Of a stretch of DNA of 7,522 bases, positions 1,311 through 7,026 are shown piece after piece. This DNA comes from Elusimicrobiota bacterium (GTDB lineage Bacteria > CG03 > SLGR01 > PWQF01). The DNA is taken from NCBI GenBank assembly GCA_003557485.1, contig PWOI01000159.1, forward strand, positions 1 through 7,522, read 5' to 3'. The stretch's first letter is position 1. Each line of letters begins with the position of its first letter. Made by a program: the position numbers and the translations under genes. The notes below the pieces were generated by a model. That model did not search any database and was not told the origin of the DNA. It worked only from the letters and a program-made list of their open reading frames with translations.

Positions 1311-1670
1311 ATGAATTATATTCTCACATTACTTCTTTTTTTGGTGGGAGTTTTCGGTATTTTTACCCAAAGAAACATAATAAAAATCATAATTTCAGTT
1401 TCAATAGCCGAAAGCGCCGCGAACATGTTTCTTGTCCTTGTGGGATACCGCTCCGGCGGTATCGCGCCGGTAATAACCGGCCGCTACGGCCCGGAAGAAT
1501 TTTCTTTATTGAGCGTTGATCCTTTTCCGCAAGTTATGGTGATTACCTCAATTGTGATAGGACTGAGCGTTATTGCTCTTATGGTTGTTATCGCCCTTAG
1601 GCTTTATCACATTCACGGGACTTATAACATTGACGAAATAATAATTAATTATAGGGAGAATAAAAAGTGA
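1311..1670 (+). CDS. mrpC: Mrp cation/proton antiporter subunit MrpC (NuoK-like)
   Basis: This 119-residue protein has three transmembrane helices and belongs to the MnhC/MrpC family, homologous to NuoK of Complex I and MbhG of membrane-bound hydrogenase. Recognisable elements are the second helix with Glu34 in SIAESAANMFLV, the GG-APVI stretch, and the family-typical DPFPQVMVITSIVIGLSVIAL segment at about residues 70-90, which leads into the third helix. Embedded carboxylates of NuoK-type subunits take part in proton movement between the antiporter-like subunits. ATG 1311 sits four bases after the mrpB stop, with GAGGAAGAG just upstream as a purine-rich ribosome site. The stop overlaps the next start as GTGA. 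Length and motifs look intact. Confidence 0.92.
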   Translation: MNYILTLLLFLVGVFGIFTQRNIIKIIISVSIAESAANMFLVLVGYRSGGIAPVITGRYGPEEFSLLSVDPFPQVMVITSIVIGLSVIALMVVIALRLYHIHGTYNIDEIIINYRENKK

Positions 1671-2206
1671 ATGTTATTCTTCCCCTGCTGGTGGCTCTTC
1701 CCCTGGGAGCCGGATTTATAATAGCTCTTCTTCCTAAGAAGCACACTAAAGCAGCAGCTGTTATCTCTGTCACCGCATCTATTATAATTCTTGTAGGCTC
1801 CGCTGCACTTTTCGGCTATGAAGGGATTTATGAAATAGGCGGATGGAATGCACCGGTTGGAATAAGCCTCAGCATTGATGCTTTCAGCTGGATAATGCTT
1901 ATGAGCATATCAACTCTTACTCTTTTTGTTTTGCTTTTTTCCGCAGACTATATGAAAACCTACACTTCACGCAGCCGTTTTTATGTTCTTTTTTTGATGA
2001 TGGTTGCCGGTATGAACGGAACGGTGATTGCAGGTGACATTTTCAACCGTTTTGTTTACGTGGAAATGGCAGCAATAGCTTCATATATTCTCGTGGGTTT
2101 TGGTTGCGGCTCAAAGGAGCTTGCTGCGTCTCTTAAATACGCAGTGCTAGGAGCTCTTGCCTCTTCTGTTACTGTTCTGGGTATCGGTCTTTTTTCTCCC
2201 AGGTGA
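1667..2206 (+). pseudogene. mrpD: Mrp antiporter subunit MrpD, N-terminal part, frame broken at a 24-bp hairpin
   Basis: N-terminal 179 codons of the NuoL/M/N-like subunit MrpD, the ion-conducting subunit of the Mrp complex. It starts with GTG 1667, overlapping the mrpC stop and preceded by an AGGGAGA site. Visible family features are SIDAFSWIMLM (about 69-79), FSADYM (91-96), the GDIFNRFVYVEM motif carrying the TM5 glutamate Glu133, and ELAASLKYAVLGALASS. Reading stops at TGA 2204-2206, directly after the conserved GIGLF, where family members continue into a YG..GTLNM-like segment. That segment is present immediately downstream in the -1 frame (next entry). Re-joining the parts by a -1 shift at the T6 run 2190-2195 would give about 491 residues, the normal MrpD size. 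Whether this is a dead gene, a programmed frameshift or an assembly error cannot be settled here. Confidence 0.8.
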
Positions 2207-2248
2207 GACATATTTATGGAACCGTAAATATGTCTCACCTGGGAGAAA
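2193..2248. repeat. Perfect 24-bp inverted repeat with an 8-nt loop inside mrpD
   Basis: The left arm 2193-2216 is the exact reverse complement of the right arm 2225-2248; the loop is TGGAACCG. The right arm encodes the conserved NMSHLGE segment of MrpD. The left arm occupies a stretch that does not fit the family and contains the stop that ends the first reading frame. The T6 run 2190-2195 abuts and partly enters the left arm. No T-run follows the stem on either strand, so it is not an intrinsic terminator. Confidence 0.97.
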
Positions 2249-3141
2249 GCATAGCTGCCGATGGTCTTGTTGTTTTTTCCCTGAATGCGCTTTTTCTTGC
2301 CGCTCTCCTTATAATTGCCGGTTTTGCTTTCAAGGCGGCTCTTTTCCCGTTTCATATATGGCAGCCCGACGCGCTCAGTTATTCTCCCGCTCCGGTTGCG
2401 GCAATGATAAGCGGAGCTCTTATCTCCTCGGTAGGAGTTTATGCGATGATACGTACGGTTTTTGCTGTTTTCGGAATAACTGCCCAGCTCGGATGGCTTT
2501 TAGCCTCTTTGGGAATTGTTTCAATGGTGTCGGGAACACTGCTCGCGGCTTCCCAAAAGAACTACAAAAAGATTTTCTCCTATTTAAACATTTCACAGAT
2601 AGGTTATGTTTTTCTGGGTGTCGGTATAGGCGGTCAGCTTGCTGCCAGGGGTATAAATCTGACGGCGGGGACGCTTGCTGTAACCGGCGGAGTATTCCAT
2701 CTTGTCAACCAATCTGTTTTTAATCCTCTGCTGTTCTTAACTGCGGAAACGGGTCTTGGACGCAGAAAAAACCCCGAATGGATTGCGGGGCTTCTTTCAC
2801 TGGCTGGCGTGCCGCCTCTCGGGGGGGGAATCAGTAAGATAATGATAATTGCGGCCTGTTTTATGGCCGGCTATTATTTTATCGCTTTTCTTGCCGCTGC
2901 AGTTGCAGTATTTACTTTTATTATTCTTAAGAGATTTCTTTTCTATCCCGGGGAGAAGAAAAAAAAGGCCAGGAAAAGTGTTCCCGCTTTAATCCGTATT
3001 CCTGTAACCGGGCTTTCAATACTGTGTCTTGCCCTGGCCCTGCTGGCATTGCCAATTTTCAGGCCCCTTGTACTTGACCCTGTTTCCAGGAGTATTTTAG
3101 GCCCGGCCGGGTCGGAGAGTTATGAGGATAAGGTTCCGTGA
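2203..3141 (+). pseudogene. mrpD: Mrp antiporter subunit MrpD, C-terminal part
   Basis: C-terminal two-thirds of MrpD in the -1 frame relative to the first part. If translated separately it could start at GTG 2203 (GTGA overlap with the first part's stop) or ATG 2230, but both lie inside the 24-bp stem and neither has a Shine-Dalgarno. Conserved features, numbered from GTG 2203: NMSHLGE (9-15); the TM7 lysine Lys44 in GFAFKAALFPFHIWQPDA; the YKKIFSYLNISQIGY loop and helix (121-135); a His166 helix; AGVPPLGGGISK (201-212); and a charged TM12 position, Lys243. The helix usually written H..NHA.FKALLFL in the family reads HLVNQSVFNPLLFL here, so a lysine important in this channel class is Asn174. 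Apart from that and the 5' break, the frame is clean to its end and overlaps mrpE as GTGA, which argues against long decay. Confidence 0.8.
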
Positions 3142-3658: not shown

Positions 3659-3925
3659 ATGGAGATTTTTATCTATTCAGCTCTTTTCCTATTTATTCTT
3701 GGCATTTTTCTTTGCCTGGGCAGACTGATATCCGGACCAACTGCCCCGGACAGGGCTGTGGCAATTGAAATTATGGGTATAATACTTGTGGGTTTTTGTA
3801 CTGTTATCAGTATTTTAACCGGCGAGGAATTTTATATGAGCGTGGCAATTGCCTGGGCTCTTTTAAGCTTCATAGGAAGTCTTGCACTCGGAAAATATTT
3901 AGAGGGGAAAAACCTCGATGAATGA
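3659..3925 (+). CDS. mrpF: Mrp cation/proton antiporter subunit MrpF
   Basis: This 88-residue, three-helix membrane protein is of the MnhF/MrpF family, equivalent to MbhB of membrane-bound hydrogenase. The loop after the first helix carries the signature RLISGPTAPDRAVAIEIMG (about residues 21-39), including the Pro-Asp-Arg element typical of the family. The second and third helices follow with no insertions. ATG 3659 is two bases after the mrpE stop, with GAGG at 3645-3648 at suitable spacing. The end overlaps the mrpG start by eight bases. It acts as a small structural subunit of the antiporter module. Confidence 0.92.
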   Translation: MEIFIYSALFLFILGIFLCLGRLISGPTAPDRAVAIEIMGIILVGFCTVISILTGEEFYMSVAIAWALLSFIGSLALGKYLEGKNLDE

Positions 3926-4757
3926 ATATATAGGAATAGTGCTGATTGCCTTCGGTGTAATATATGATCTTCTTGCCTGTCTGGGGCTTATCCGTATGCC
4001 GGACATATATACCAGGCTTCAGACAGCTACAAAAGCAGTGACCGTAGGAACTGCATGCATACTTATAGGCGCAGCCGTTTATGCAGGGCCCGGGCCGCTT
4101 GCCGCAAAAGCACTTCTTTGTATGGTTTTTGTTCTTTTAACCAATCCCACCTCGGCCCACGTAATTGCGCGAGCTGCTCACAGTTCGGGTATAAGAGTTG
4201 AAAGGGTTACAGCGGAAGGACTTATGGGGCGTGAAATTGAATCAGAACTCTGGGATGTAACAAAAAAGGAAGACACGGTTCAGAAAGATTTACTTATGCA
4301 TATAATTGCGAATTGTTCTATTGTTGAGATAAACCAACATGTCAATAAAGAGGGTCTTTTTGAATTGGTTTCTCAGAAATTAGGTCATATCCAGAATGTT
4401 TCCCCCGATGTGATTAAGAATAAATTAATTTCTCGCGAAAAAGAATCGGTAACGGCCCTGAAACCCGATTTTGCCATTCCGCACATAATTATAGCCGGGG
4501 AAGATTCTTTTGAAATTATTGCGATTCGGGCAAAAAAAGGCGTATTTTTCTCAGAGGACTTTCCGGCAGTCAGGTCAGTGTTTGTAATGTCCGGAACCCA
4601 GGACCAGTGGAGTTTTTATCTTAGGATCCTTGCCTTGATAGTACAGTTAGTCCGTACTGAAGGTTTTTTTGACAAATGGCTGAAAGCTTCAGATAAAGAA
4701 GAATTGAGAGAGTTGCTTTTAAATGGAATTAAAGGAATAAGAGAAAATAAAAACTAG
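3918..4757 (+). CDS. mrpG: MrpG fused to a C-terminal PTS EIIA-type phospho-acceptor domain
   Basis: Residues 1-100 are a complete MnhG/MrpG (MbhC-like) subunit: three helices with GVIYDLLACLGLIRMPDIYTR, the TNPTSAHVIARAAHSSG motif and the usual end of the family. A linker (about 101-122) then leads into residues 123-275, a PTS EIIA domain of the fructose/mannitol/Ntr class. This domain carries the pattern REKESVTALKPDFAIPH, with Glu174, Thr179 and the phospho-acceptor His189, followed by strands IIAIRAKKGV and VRSVFVMSG and a long helix SFYLRILALIVQLV. Ordinary MrpG has about 100-125 residues, so the 279-residue length is due to this fusion. In Enterobacteria EIIA-Ntr controls K+ systems such as TrkA and KdpD; by analogy this domain may tune the antiporter through PTS phosphorylation (inference). 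ATG 3918 overlaps mrpF and follows AGAGGGG. Confidence 0.9.
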   Translation: MNEYIGIVLIAFGVIYDLLACLGLIRMPDIYTRLQTATKAVTVGTACILIGAAVYAGPGPLAAKALLCMVFVLLTNPTSAHVIARAAHSSGIRVERVTAEGLMGREIESELWDVTKKEDTVQKDLLMHIIANCSIVEINQHVNKEGLFELVSQKLGHIQNVSPDVIKNKLISREKESVTALKPDFAIPHIIIAGEDSFEIIAIRAKKGVFFSEDFPAVRSVFVMSGTQDQWSFYLRILALIVQLVRTEGFFDKWLKASDKEELRELLLNGIKGIRENKN

Positions 4758-4758
4758 T

Positions 4759-7026
4759 TTATTCCTCTCTATCTTTCCCGTGCACAGGAATTGTAATTGT
4801 AAAACTTGTTCCTTTTCCACTTCTAGTTTTTCCCGATATTTCCCCTTTATGCCCTTCAACAATATCTTTGGCAATAGTTAATCCCAGGCATTTTTCCATG
4901 ATAGCTTTATGTTGGAAAATATTTTCCACATATTTTTTTGACATTCCGGGGCCGGTGTCGGAAATTGAGATCTGAACCTTTTTCTTTTTTGATTTTGCGG
5001 ATACTGTGATTTTATCACCCGGGCTGCCGCAGCGGACAGCATTTCCCAGTATATGGGTTATAACCCAGGTCATTTTTGTAAAATCAATTTTAACTTCCGG
5101 AAGGTCTTCATCCAGCTCTCTTTGGATTACAATTTCCTTTTCTGCGGTCTGTCCCCTGATTGGCTGCAGGGCTGATTCAATAAGTTTATTAACACTGGCA
5201 ACTTCCCGGGAGATGATATGAATATCAACCTCCTCTTCATGTTCGGAGGTATACTTGTAATACCTATCCAAAATATCTCCCCGGGCCAGTACTCCCACCA
5301 GGCGCTTGGAACGGTCATCTGCCAGAACGGGAATCATCTTCACCGATACTTTGCTTATCAGATTAAATGCTTTCAGTAAACTGTCATCCTCGTAAACAGT
5401 TGCAGCAGGAGGTACGCATAAATCCTGCGCGTTACGGGACAGATCTTCCTCTTTAAGATCGATTATGCTGTCATATCTGAGTATTCCAACCAGTTCTCCG
5501 TTTGTTGAATCAGCTACCGGAAGATAGGAATAAAAACTTTTTTCAAAATACTTAAAGGTATCCTTTATGATAGTTTGGGAAGGAATTTTAATTATATCAC
5601 TCGTCATTGCCTCACGGACCTGTATATTTTCAAGCAGTTTATGTTCTTCTTCCTGGTCAATGTCGATTCCCCGGTTTATAAGCTTGGTTGTATAGATGTT
5701 TTTTTTCTGATACCAGCGGGTCAGGGTGGAGCTGATTATACAGGCAAACATCATTGGCAGAATAATTCCGTGGTCATGGGTCATCTCATATAAAATAATT
5801 ATAGAAGTCAGCGGAGCATGGGTTGCTCCGGCGAAAACCGCTCCCATCCCAACCATAGCGTAGGACCCCGGACCGGCTGCAAGCTCGGGAAATATAATAT
5901 TGATAAGACTTCCGTAGCCTGCTCCCATCATGGCCCCAATAAAAAGGCCGGGGGCAAAAATACCGCCGCTGCCGCCACTGCCCAGAGTTAAAGAAGTGGC
6001 AATTATTTTGGCCAGCATCAAAACCAATGCAAACTGCAGGGTTAAACTGCCGTAAAGCGCCTGTTCCATAACCGGATATCCGGTAGCATGAATTTGCGGA
6101 AGCCACAAAGCCAGTCCTCCCAGAAGAAGACCGCCCATGGCCGGTTTTACCGCCATAGGAAGCGAAATTTTCTCAAAAAAATGTTCCATTCCATAAATCA
6201 TTTTTTGATATGTGAGGGATATAACGGCAGCTGAGACTCCCAGTCCGATATAGAAGAAAACTTCCCAAAAACTTATCATCTCATGGGGCGGAATACTAAA
6301 AACAGCATAAAACCGGTCAAGAAATATATTCACAACAGCCACTCCCACTACAGACGCAATCACTATTGCAGATAAAAAGCGCAGCCTTATATTACGCAAA
6401 ATAACTTCAATGCTGAAAATAACCCCGGCAAGTGGTGCGTTGAAAGTGCCGGCAATCCCTGCCGCCGCACCGGCCCCAAGTAAGGCCTTTGTTTTTTCTG
6501 TTGATAATTTTAAAAATTTTCCGACGGATGAACCGAACGCCGAGCCTATCTGGACTATAGGCCCTTCACGGCCTGCTGAGCCGCCTGAACCGATACATAT
6601 TGCCGAAACAAGGACTTTAAGCGGGACAATGCGAAAACGCATTATCCCGTCTTTTTTTGCCACAGATTCCATCACTTCGGGTACACCGTGGCCACGGGCT
6701 TCCTTTACAAAATAAGCGATTACAGGGCCTATAATAAGCCCACCTATAGCCGGAGCGAAAAGGCGGTACTGCCAGGGAAGCGAAAGAACCGCGTCAAGAA
6801 AACCATCGGTGGTAGTAGCTCCGTAAAAAATATGTTTAACACCCAGAATAAGCAACTTGAATGCGATAGATGCAAGTCCGCCAACTATGCCAATAAGAGT
6901 TGCAAGTATAACCATTCCAAGAGGGCCGGACTGTTGGAAATACCGGTATACCGGACTGTATATACCTTTATATAAGATATTCACTATCCCGAAACTGCCA
7001 GGTTTTGCTTTTTTATATTGATTCAT
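4759..7026 (-). CDS. ClC-family chloride transporter with two CBS domains and a C-terminal histidine-kinase-type ATPase domain
   Basis: This protein has 755 residues. The ClC core (about 35-450) shows the three chloride-filter signatures: GHGVP (112-116), GREGP (152-156) with the gating Glu154, and GGIFAPGLFIG (354-364), plus the pore tyrosine Tyr445. The position equal to the internal proton glutamate E203 of E. coli ClC appears to be Val208 (IEVIL), as in chloride channels. Two CBS domains follow (about 470-525 and 535-591), a usual regulatory addition. Residues about 600-750 form a GHKL/HATPase_c domain: N-box GNAV (Asn662), DTGPGM (690-695), F-box-like IF at 703-704, and a G2-like CLGLTIAK whose first glycine is Cys713. 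No H-box or phospho-acceptor helix is seen between CBS and ATPase, so kinase activity is doubtful; nucleotide sensing is likelier (inference). The start is ATG 7026 with only a weak ribosome site. The stop lies one base from that of mrpG. Confidence 0.92.
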   Translation of the reverse strand: MNQYKKAKPGSFGIVNILYKGIYSPVYRYFQQSGPLGMVILATLIGIVGGLASIAFKLLILGVKHIFYGATTTDGFLDAVLSLPWQYRLFAPAIGGLIIGPVIAYFVKEARGHGVPEVMESVAKKDGIMRFRIVPLKVLVSAICIGSGGSAGREGPIVQIGSAFGSSVGKFLKLSTEKTKALLGAGAAAGIAGTFNAPLAGVIFSIEVILRNIRLRFLSAIVIASVVGVAVVNIFLDRFYAVFSIPPHEMISFWEVFFYIGLGVSAAVISLTYQKMIYGMEHFFEKISLPMAVKPAMGGLLLGGLALWLPQIHATGYPVMEQALYGSLTLQFALVLMLAKIIATSLTLGSGGSGGIFAPGLFIGAMMGAGYGSLINIIFPELAAGPGSYAMVGMGAVFAGATHAPLTSIIILYEMTHDHGIILPMMFACIISSTLTRWYQKKNIYTTKLINRGIDIDQEEEHKLLENIQVREAMTSDIIKIPSQTIIKDTFKYFEKSFYSYLPVADSTNGELVGILRYDSIIDLKEEDLSRNAQDLCVPPAATVYEDDSLLKAFNLISKVSVKMIPVLADDRSKRLVGVLARGDILDRYYKYTSEHEEEVDIHIISREVASVNKLIESALQPIRGQTAEKEIVIQRELDEDLPEVKIDFTKMTWVITHILGNAVRCGSPGDKITVSAKSKKKKVQISISDTGPGMSKKYVENIFQHKAIMEKCLGLTIAKDIVEGHKGEISGKTRSGKGTSFTITIPVHGKDREE

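Follow-up and report, generated by a model that had tools for sequence, protein, structure and literature searches.

Can the ATPase domain of a histidine kinase have been joined to a chloride transporter of the ClC family, and what might it do there? The question is raised by a minus-strand gene of the window, the whole 7,522-nucleotide stretch of DNA analysed here, in which a first-pass annotation had read a ClC-CBS pair ending in a GHKL ATPase. That architecture was borne out by profile matching, by fold prediction and by its presence in nine further full-length genes. The interpretation preferred here, held at a probability of about 0.5, is that the fused domain is an ATP-responsive allosteric domain that tunes chloride transport without a role as a two-component kinase.

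Architecture of the fused protein

Window positions 4759-7026 (minus strand) form a single open frame of 755 amino acids, with its stop codon at 4759-4761 and the overall order ClC-CBS-CBS-HATPase_c. The ClC transmembrane core, residues 95-436 by Pfam positions (5719-6744, minus), matches Voltage_CLC (PF00654, E=1.5e-99) and conserves the GREGP and GSGGIFAP motifs and the ClC fold. Alignment to 1KPL and 3EJZ places Glu154 of GREGP at the gating glutamate (Glu_ex, E148) of CLC-ec1. The internal proton glutamate of the CLC-ec1 type (Glu_in, E203) is replaced by Val208, which is invariant in 9 fusion proteins, and proton coupling may therefore differ from that of CLC-ec1; other CLCs without Glu_in are known exchangers, and the protein may be either an exchanger or a channel.

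As in CBS-regulated ClC proteins, the core is followed by tandem CBS domains, at residues ~470-589 (5260-5619, minus), which PF00571 matches in two stretches (59.8 bits). The better stretch in the window protein covers residues 535-589, and the start of the first CBS domain was placed from an ortholog, L032 (residues 470-523). This ClC core with a CBS pair is shared with known bacterial and eukaryotic transporters and channels such as ClC-7 and AtCLCa and with the NCBIfam ClcB-like family NF002505, which matches residues 31-593 at a score below its curated cut-off (353 vs 482 bits).

The remainder of the gene, window 4759-5270 (minus), comprises codons 586-755 and the stop. Directly behind the second CBS domain, after a short linker, lies a histidine-kinase-type CA domain with an upstream linker strand and helix, at residues ~606-748 (4783-5211, minus), as indicated by PF02518, NCBIfam, structural modelling and Foldseek. 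The HATPase_c profile (PF02518), proposed as a check in the first-pass annotation, matches residues 651-748 with E=5.7e-17 and 62.6 bits against a curated cut-off of 26.4, a score that rules out a chance match; relatives score 57-100 bits, and Pfam confirmed the domain in all 8 full-length relatives tested. NCBIfam models of kinases (AtoS, ZraS, WalK and others) cover residues ~605 to 750, which means that what was captured is the CA domain of a kinase plus the strand and helix that precede it there, without the DHp hairpin. The phospho-acceptor helix reported missing earlier is indeed missing, there being no HisKA match in the window protein by Pfam up to E=1. The protein is thus not a two-component histidine kinase, as the DHp/HisKA domain with its phospho-acceptor histidine is absent.

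Motifs and predicted fold of the ATPase domain

The N, G1 and F boxes described from the letters of the gene are all present. The N box reads WVITHILGN662A, both directly and by comparison with relatives, and its Mg-binding Asn662 (5041-5043, minus) is invariant in 10/10 aligned fusion tails and also kept in the kinase sequences of the CBS-ATPase model alignment. The G1 box, D690-T-G-P-G-M695 (4942-4959, minus), is intact, conforming to the GHKL pattern DxGxG; the F box is IF704 and the G3 box GKGT. Eight residues (N662, D690, G692, G694, F704, H726, G728 and G739) are invariant across 9 full-length fusion proteins, and the nucleotide-contact motifs N and G1 are unchanged in all tails even though tail identity drops to 25%. 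Trp654 (5065-5067, minus) is a signature of the fusion tails, present in 12/12 of them and in 0/24 histidine kinases of the same alignment.

The G2 box, which in GHKL proteins closes the ATP lid with GxGL(G), is degenerate in the window protein, as had been noticed at the outset (CLGL for GxGL): residues 711-716 (4879-4896, minus) read EKCLGL where kinases have GxGLGL. This form is common to a lineage of four members (window, L032, L033, L092), in which the box reads xKC(L/Q)GL and the lid is shortened. Cys713 (4888-4890, minus) stands in place of the second glycine, and the cysteine is kept in all four (window, L032/L004, L033/L005 and L092). Halanaerobium and a near relative have GEDLPL or GDDLPL. 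Elsewhere the box is whole or partial, as GKGLGL in the paralog (L002), GKGLAL in L053, VGGLGL in L054 and DSGLGL in L055, the paralog and L053 having the GxGL(G) form. The window copy is most likely a pseudokinase-like version, and with G2 lost in its clade and EDLPL in Halanaerobium, nucleotides may be bound weakly or not at all there.

Structure prediction, a second check proposed beforehand, gave an alpha/beta ATPase domain like that of kinase CA domains, with the lid at residues ~701-720 modelled less confidently. A full-length AlphaFold2 model (A6), built on an alignment of 6 sequences that included no kinases, had a mean pLDDT of 75 and a pTM of 0.57, at which the relative placement of domains is unreliable; it shows the ClC core, the CBS pair and the ATPase domain, the last with pLDDT mostly 80-89 outside the lid. 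Its best PDB matches were ClC-7, ClC-2, ClC-3 and CLC-ec1 (TMt ~0.85 for CLC-ec1). A separate model of the CBS-ATPase region (A5), possibly biased by four kinase sequences in its alignment and poor in its CBS half, matched by Foldseek ZraS-ADP (rmsd 2.8 over 147 columns) and the ThkA CA domain (TMt 0.81), and also resembled DivL, YycG and HK853. The secondary structure of the ATPase domain was much the same in the kinase-free full-length model, and the models and Foldseek agree with a Bergerat fold. The tail thus resembles the CA domains of histidine kinases (ZraS, WalK/YycG, HK853, ThkA, DivL) in sequence and fold, in its N and G1 boxes and in the linker of strand and helix; unlike these, the window protein has no DHp/HisKA histidine helix, has no G2 box in its lineage, and is joined to a CBS pair.

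The likeness to DivL bears on a reading in which the fold no longer uses ATP and instead binds a partner, either a kinase or a response regulator, that gates the ClC through its own state, as a docking module or pseudokinase. In DivL a kinase core has been repurposed as a sensory input (PMC4211667), DivL is among the closest folds found by Foldseek, and a degenerate G2 box and shortened lid in the window lineage would fit such a change. This reading is nevertheless unlikely, since DivL retains the DHp domain, on which response regulators mainly dock and which the window protein lacks, and docking alone would not require invariant N and G1 motifs.

Recurrence, descent and selection

A search for further genes of the same architecture, also suggested by the first-pass annotation, found nine full-length fusions besides that of the window, and two truncated at contig ends. 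A paralog on another contig of the same genome (C183) is full-length and 51% identical; an ortholog from Elusimicrobia MAG T1Sed10_83R1, of the same order, is full-length and 81% identical; and the 'bacterium' MAG T1Sed10_126 carries a full-length relative of 59-60% identity, with another full-length fusion in a second genome of that phylum (G221). Full-length fusions also occur in the isolate Halanaerobium polyolivorans Z-7514 and in four further genomes of its order. The architecture spans several phyla. That the gene is an artefact, an assembly chimera or a misread frame joining ClC and kinase genes, might be suggested by the origin of the window, which is the whole of one short contig in a MAG broken into 212; this explanation, which retains practically no probability, is refuted by the same junction in independent genomes, including the H. 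polyolivorans isolate and a 2.6-Mb contig (G075).

The fusion is rare. A strong ClC-CBS match was found in 96 of 386 sampled genomes, most of these matches ending near residue 590 apart from the fusions, and only 4 of the 386 (5 genes) had a match that continued past residue ~633 into the ATPase domain. Full-length fusions were present in 5 of 38 genomes of the H. polyolivorans order, with cut copies in 2 more, and among 398 genomes of its phylum only two matched, both already known from the order; none was found in the viral collections searched. The surveyed bacterial ClC-CBS proteins have no family match beyond the CBS pair (~590), to which the window protein adds a kinase-type ATPase of ~160 residues. 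Two candidates were set aside: a CBS-HATPase match on a Ca. Manganitrophus plasmid, which was taken to be an ordinary kinase and adjoins genes for a response regulator and a sigma-54 regulator, and stand-alone HATPase ORFs of 140-145 residues in the window's genome, which are only kinases cut by contig ends. Separately, two ClC-CBS proteins, L008 and L009, also carry C-terminal additions, which by eye resemble RCK/TrkA_C domains and not HATPase_c.

Trees were built for both parts of the protein. In that of the ClC-CBS part, ten fusions and three unfused proteins (one from a Thermoplasmata MAG, two from Halanaerobiales) form a clade supported at 100/100, within which fusions lie on two sides, one branch having support of only 83/88. 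In the ATPase-domain tree, the 12 fusion tails group together to the exclusion of 24 histidine kinases (97/93). Each fusion sub-lineage is represented by one copy in the window genome. These trees suggest that a kinase CA domain was probably captured once onto a ClC-CBS scaffold, and their best reading would be a single capture, after which the tail was lost at least once and the gene passed between phyla; as the direction of change was read without an outgroup, two captures of a common tail are also possible.

Selection on the tail was estimated by pairwise NG86 dN/dS with bootstrap. For the window-L032 pair the values are 0.11 for the ClC core, 0.19 for the CBS pair and 0.42 (0.22-0.72) for linker and ATPase; for H. 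polyolivorans and L052 they are 0.10, 0.10 and 0.17 (0.11-0.27), respectively. Two further pairs were saturated in one case and too similar to be informative in the other. With tail values of 0.17-0.42 and upper bounds of 0.27-0.72, the tail is kept by purifying selection, less tightly in the window lineage. It is thus very unlikely that the captured domain, at least in the window lineage, is a functionless relic in decay. Weaker constraint there than on the ClC core, the degenerate G2 box, and the three unfused clade members, for which tail loss is one possible reading, would all agree with decay; dN/dS is nevertheless below 1 even at the upper bound in the window lineage and lower still in the Halanaerobium pair, the key residues never vary, and several phyla have retained the tail.

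Gene neighbourhoods and possible roles

Genes outside the window were identified by eye from their translations, with HMMs for some. In the window, a plus-strand operon for an Mrp-type Na+/H+ antiporter ends in an MrpG-EIIA fusion gene and is convergent with the ClC gene. On C183 the order is Mrp operon, MrpG-EIIA, CPA2 antiporter-EIIA, ClC-HATPase and an SLC12-like transporter, and at the ortholog locus in G005 an SLC12-like gene, ClC-HATPase and a convergent MrpG-EIIA gene. Most copies other than the Elusimicrobia type adjoin TrkH/TrkA-type K+ uptake genes or a second ClC: TrkH and TrkA type genes in H. polyolivorans and G075, a TrkH-like gene (by eye) in G033, permeases and a TrkH-like gene in G073, and, in G090, a TrkA-like gene together with another ClC that lacks CBS domains; no ion-transport gene was recognised near the G094 fusion. 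No response regulator or kinase gene was seen in the neighbourhoods read by eye, and a distant partner is possible.

Several features of these loci were recorded in their own right. In G091 (L089) and G090 (L087) the CBS-less second ClC gene follows ClC-HATPase directly on the same strand. The MrpG-PTS EIIA_2 fusion, at window 3918-4757 (plus), keeps the motif FAIPH, and the same fusion occurs on C183 and in G005; together with the CPA2 antiporter-EIIA fusion on C183, it makes putative control of Na+/H+ antiporters by EIIA domains worth study. The mrpD-like gene at window 1667-3141 (plus) is interrupted, giving ORFs of 179 and 312 residues in different frames with the break near 2185-2212, while its C183 paralog is one ORF of 497 residues. 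A perfect inverted repeat of ~24 bp with an 8-base loop (window ~2193-2248) lies exactly at the break and may reflect a palindromic mutation or an error of assembly.

The neighbouring EIIA domains enter into a further reading, in which the CA domain is an active kinase in trans, phosphorylating another protein and so signalling the state of the ClC onwards. Candidate targets would be a stand-alone DHp or HPt domain, a Ser/Thr as for GHKL kinases of the SpoIIAB/RsbW type, or the histidine of the neighbouring EIIA domains. The whole or partial G2 boxes of the paralog, L053, L054 and L055 are consistent with this, as is the position of the window and C183 genes beside MrpG-EIIA and CPA2-EIIA fusions with the EIIA motif FAIPH/FPH. 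Against it stand the degenerate G2 boxes of the window lineage and Halanaerobium and the lack of a conserved partner gene, and activity in trans is distinctly unlikely. Its EIIA version was rejected. The window genome (G000), 86.6% complete, holds four EIIA_2 domains, and HPr was not found in it; HPr is present in 8/8 other fusion-bearing genomes, so that its absence from G000 most likely reflects incompleteness, and normal EIIA phosphorylation is possible in those eight. No EIIA fusion was seen, moreover, beside the Halanaerobiales or T1Sed10_126 copies.

Among the roles suggested, that of a nucleotide sensor is best supported, because the pocket residues are invariant, the phospho-acceptor domain is absent, and many CLCs are regulated by nucleotides through their CBS domains (PMC10423218). 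In this role the CA domain would bind ATP (or ADP) in the conserved pocket of Asn662, Asp690 and glycine-rich residues, the dimeric CBS pair would relay its occupancy to the transport domain, and chloride movement would thereby be tuned to the energy state of the cell during salt adaptation. Without a DHp helix there is no ordinary two-component kinase function; the window copy, with G2 and lid decayed, would at best bind nucleotide without phosphate transfer, a lid closer to complete is found in the C183 paralog and in some copies from Halanaerobiales. The ion-transport genes around most copies and the obligate chloride requirement of H. polyolivorans also agree with this role. The analysis establishes the architecture, the fold, the conserved residues, a single clade of tails and purifying selection on them, whereas binding of nucleotide, its allosteric coupling to transport and a part in chloride and potassium balance are proposed. 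Against a sensor, the CBS domains already sense nucleotides, so that a second sensor would be partly redundant; the loss or replacement of G2 in some copies may leave little or no affinity for nucleotide; and the tail is less constrained than the ClC core (0.42 vs 0.11 in the window-L032 pair).

Transporters joined to kinase-type ATPases in one chain are known from the SSS/SLC5 family, in the transporter-kinases CbrA and MxtR/CrbS and in actinobacterial SSS-HATPase_c proteins (PMC7918813). CbrA has STAC and PAS domains, a complete DHp-CA and a response-regulator partner, whereas the window protein has ClC and CBS domains and neither DHp nor partner; the actinobacterial proteins carry GAF and PP2C_SIG, and the window protein lacks PP2C. 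No description of a ClC-HATPase fusion was found in open-access papers, of which coverage was incomplete. What is new is the kind of regulatory domain on a ClC-CBS transporter, the joining of transporter and kinase ATPase being already known in the SSS family. Tentatively, at somewhat short of even odds, these proteins are a ClC subfamily of their own, whose domesticated kinase ATPase directly couples chloride flux to nucleotide state or, in copies with G2 intact, phosphorylates in trans according to transporter state.

Current work on CLCs asks how cytosolic nucleotide acts through the regulatory domains on the transport core (PMC10423218), and a naturally occurring ClC that has a further nucleotide-binding module, of a well-understood kind, could serve as a test system. 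The fusion is also a further case of a histidine-kinase catalytic domain taken from two-component signalling onto a transporter. The names of the T1Sed10 and CSSed10 MAGs fit the soda-lake sediment samples of PMC6146748, and a soda-lake study is the source of the H. polyolivorans isolate, a fusion carrier with an obligate chloride requirement (PMC10536098). From these few named records, the carriers most likely live in salty habitats, mostly soda lakes, in which keeping chloride and potassium in balance is a central problem.
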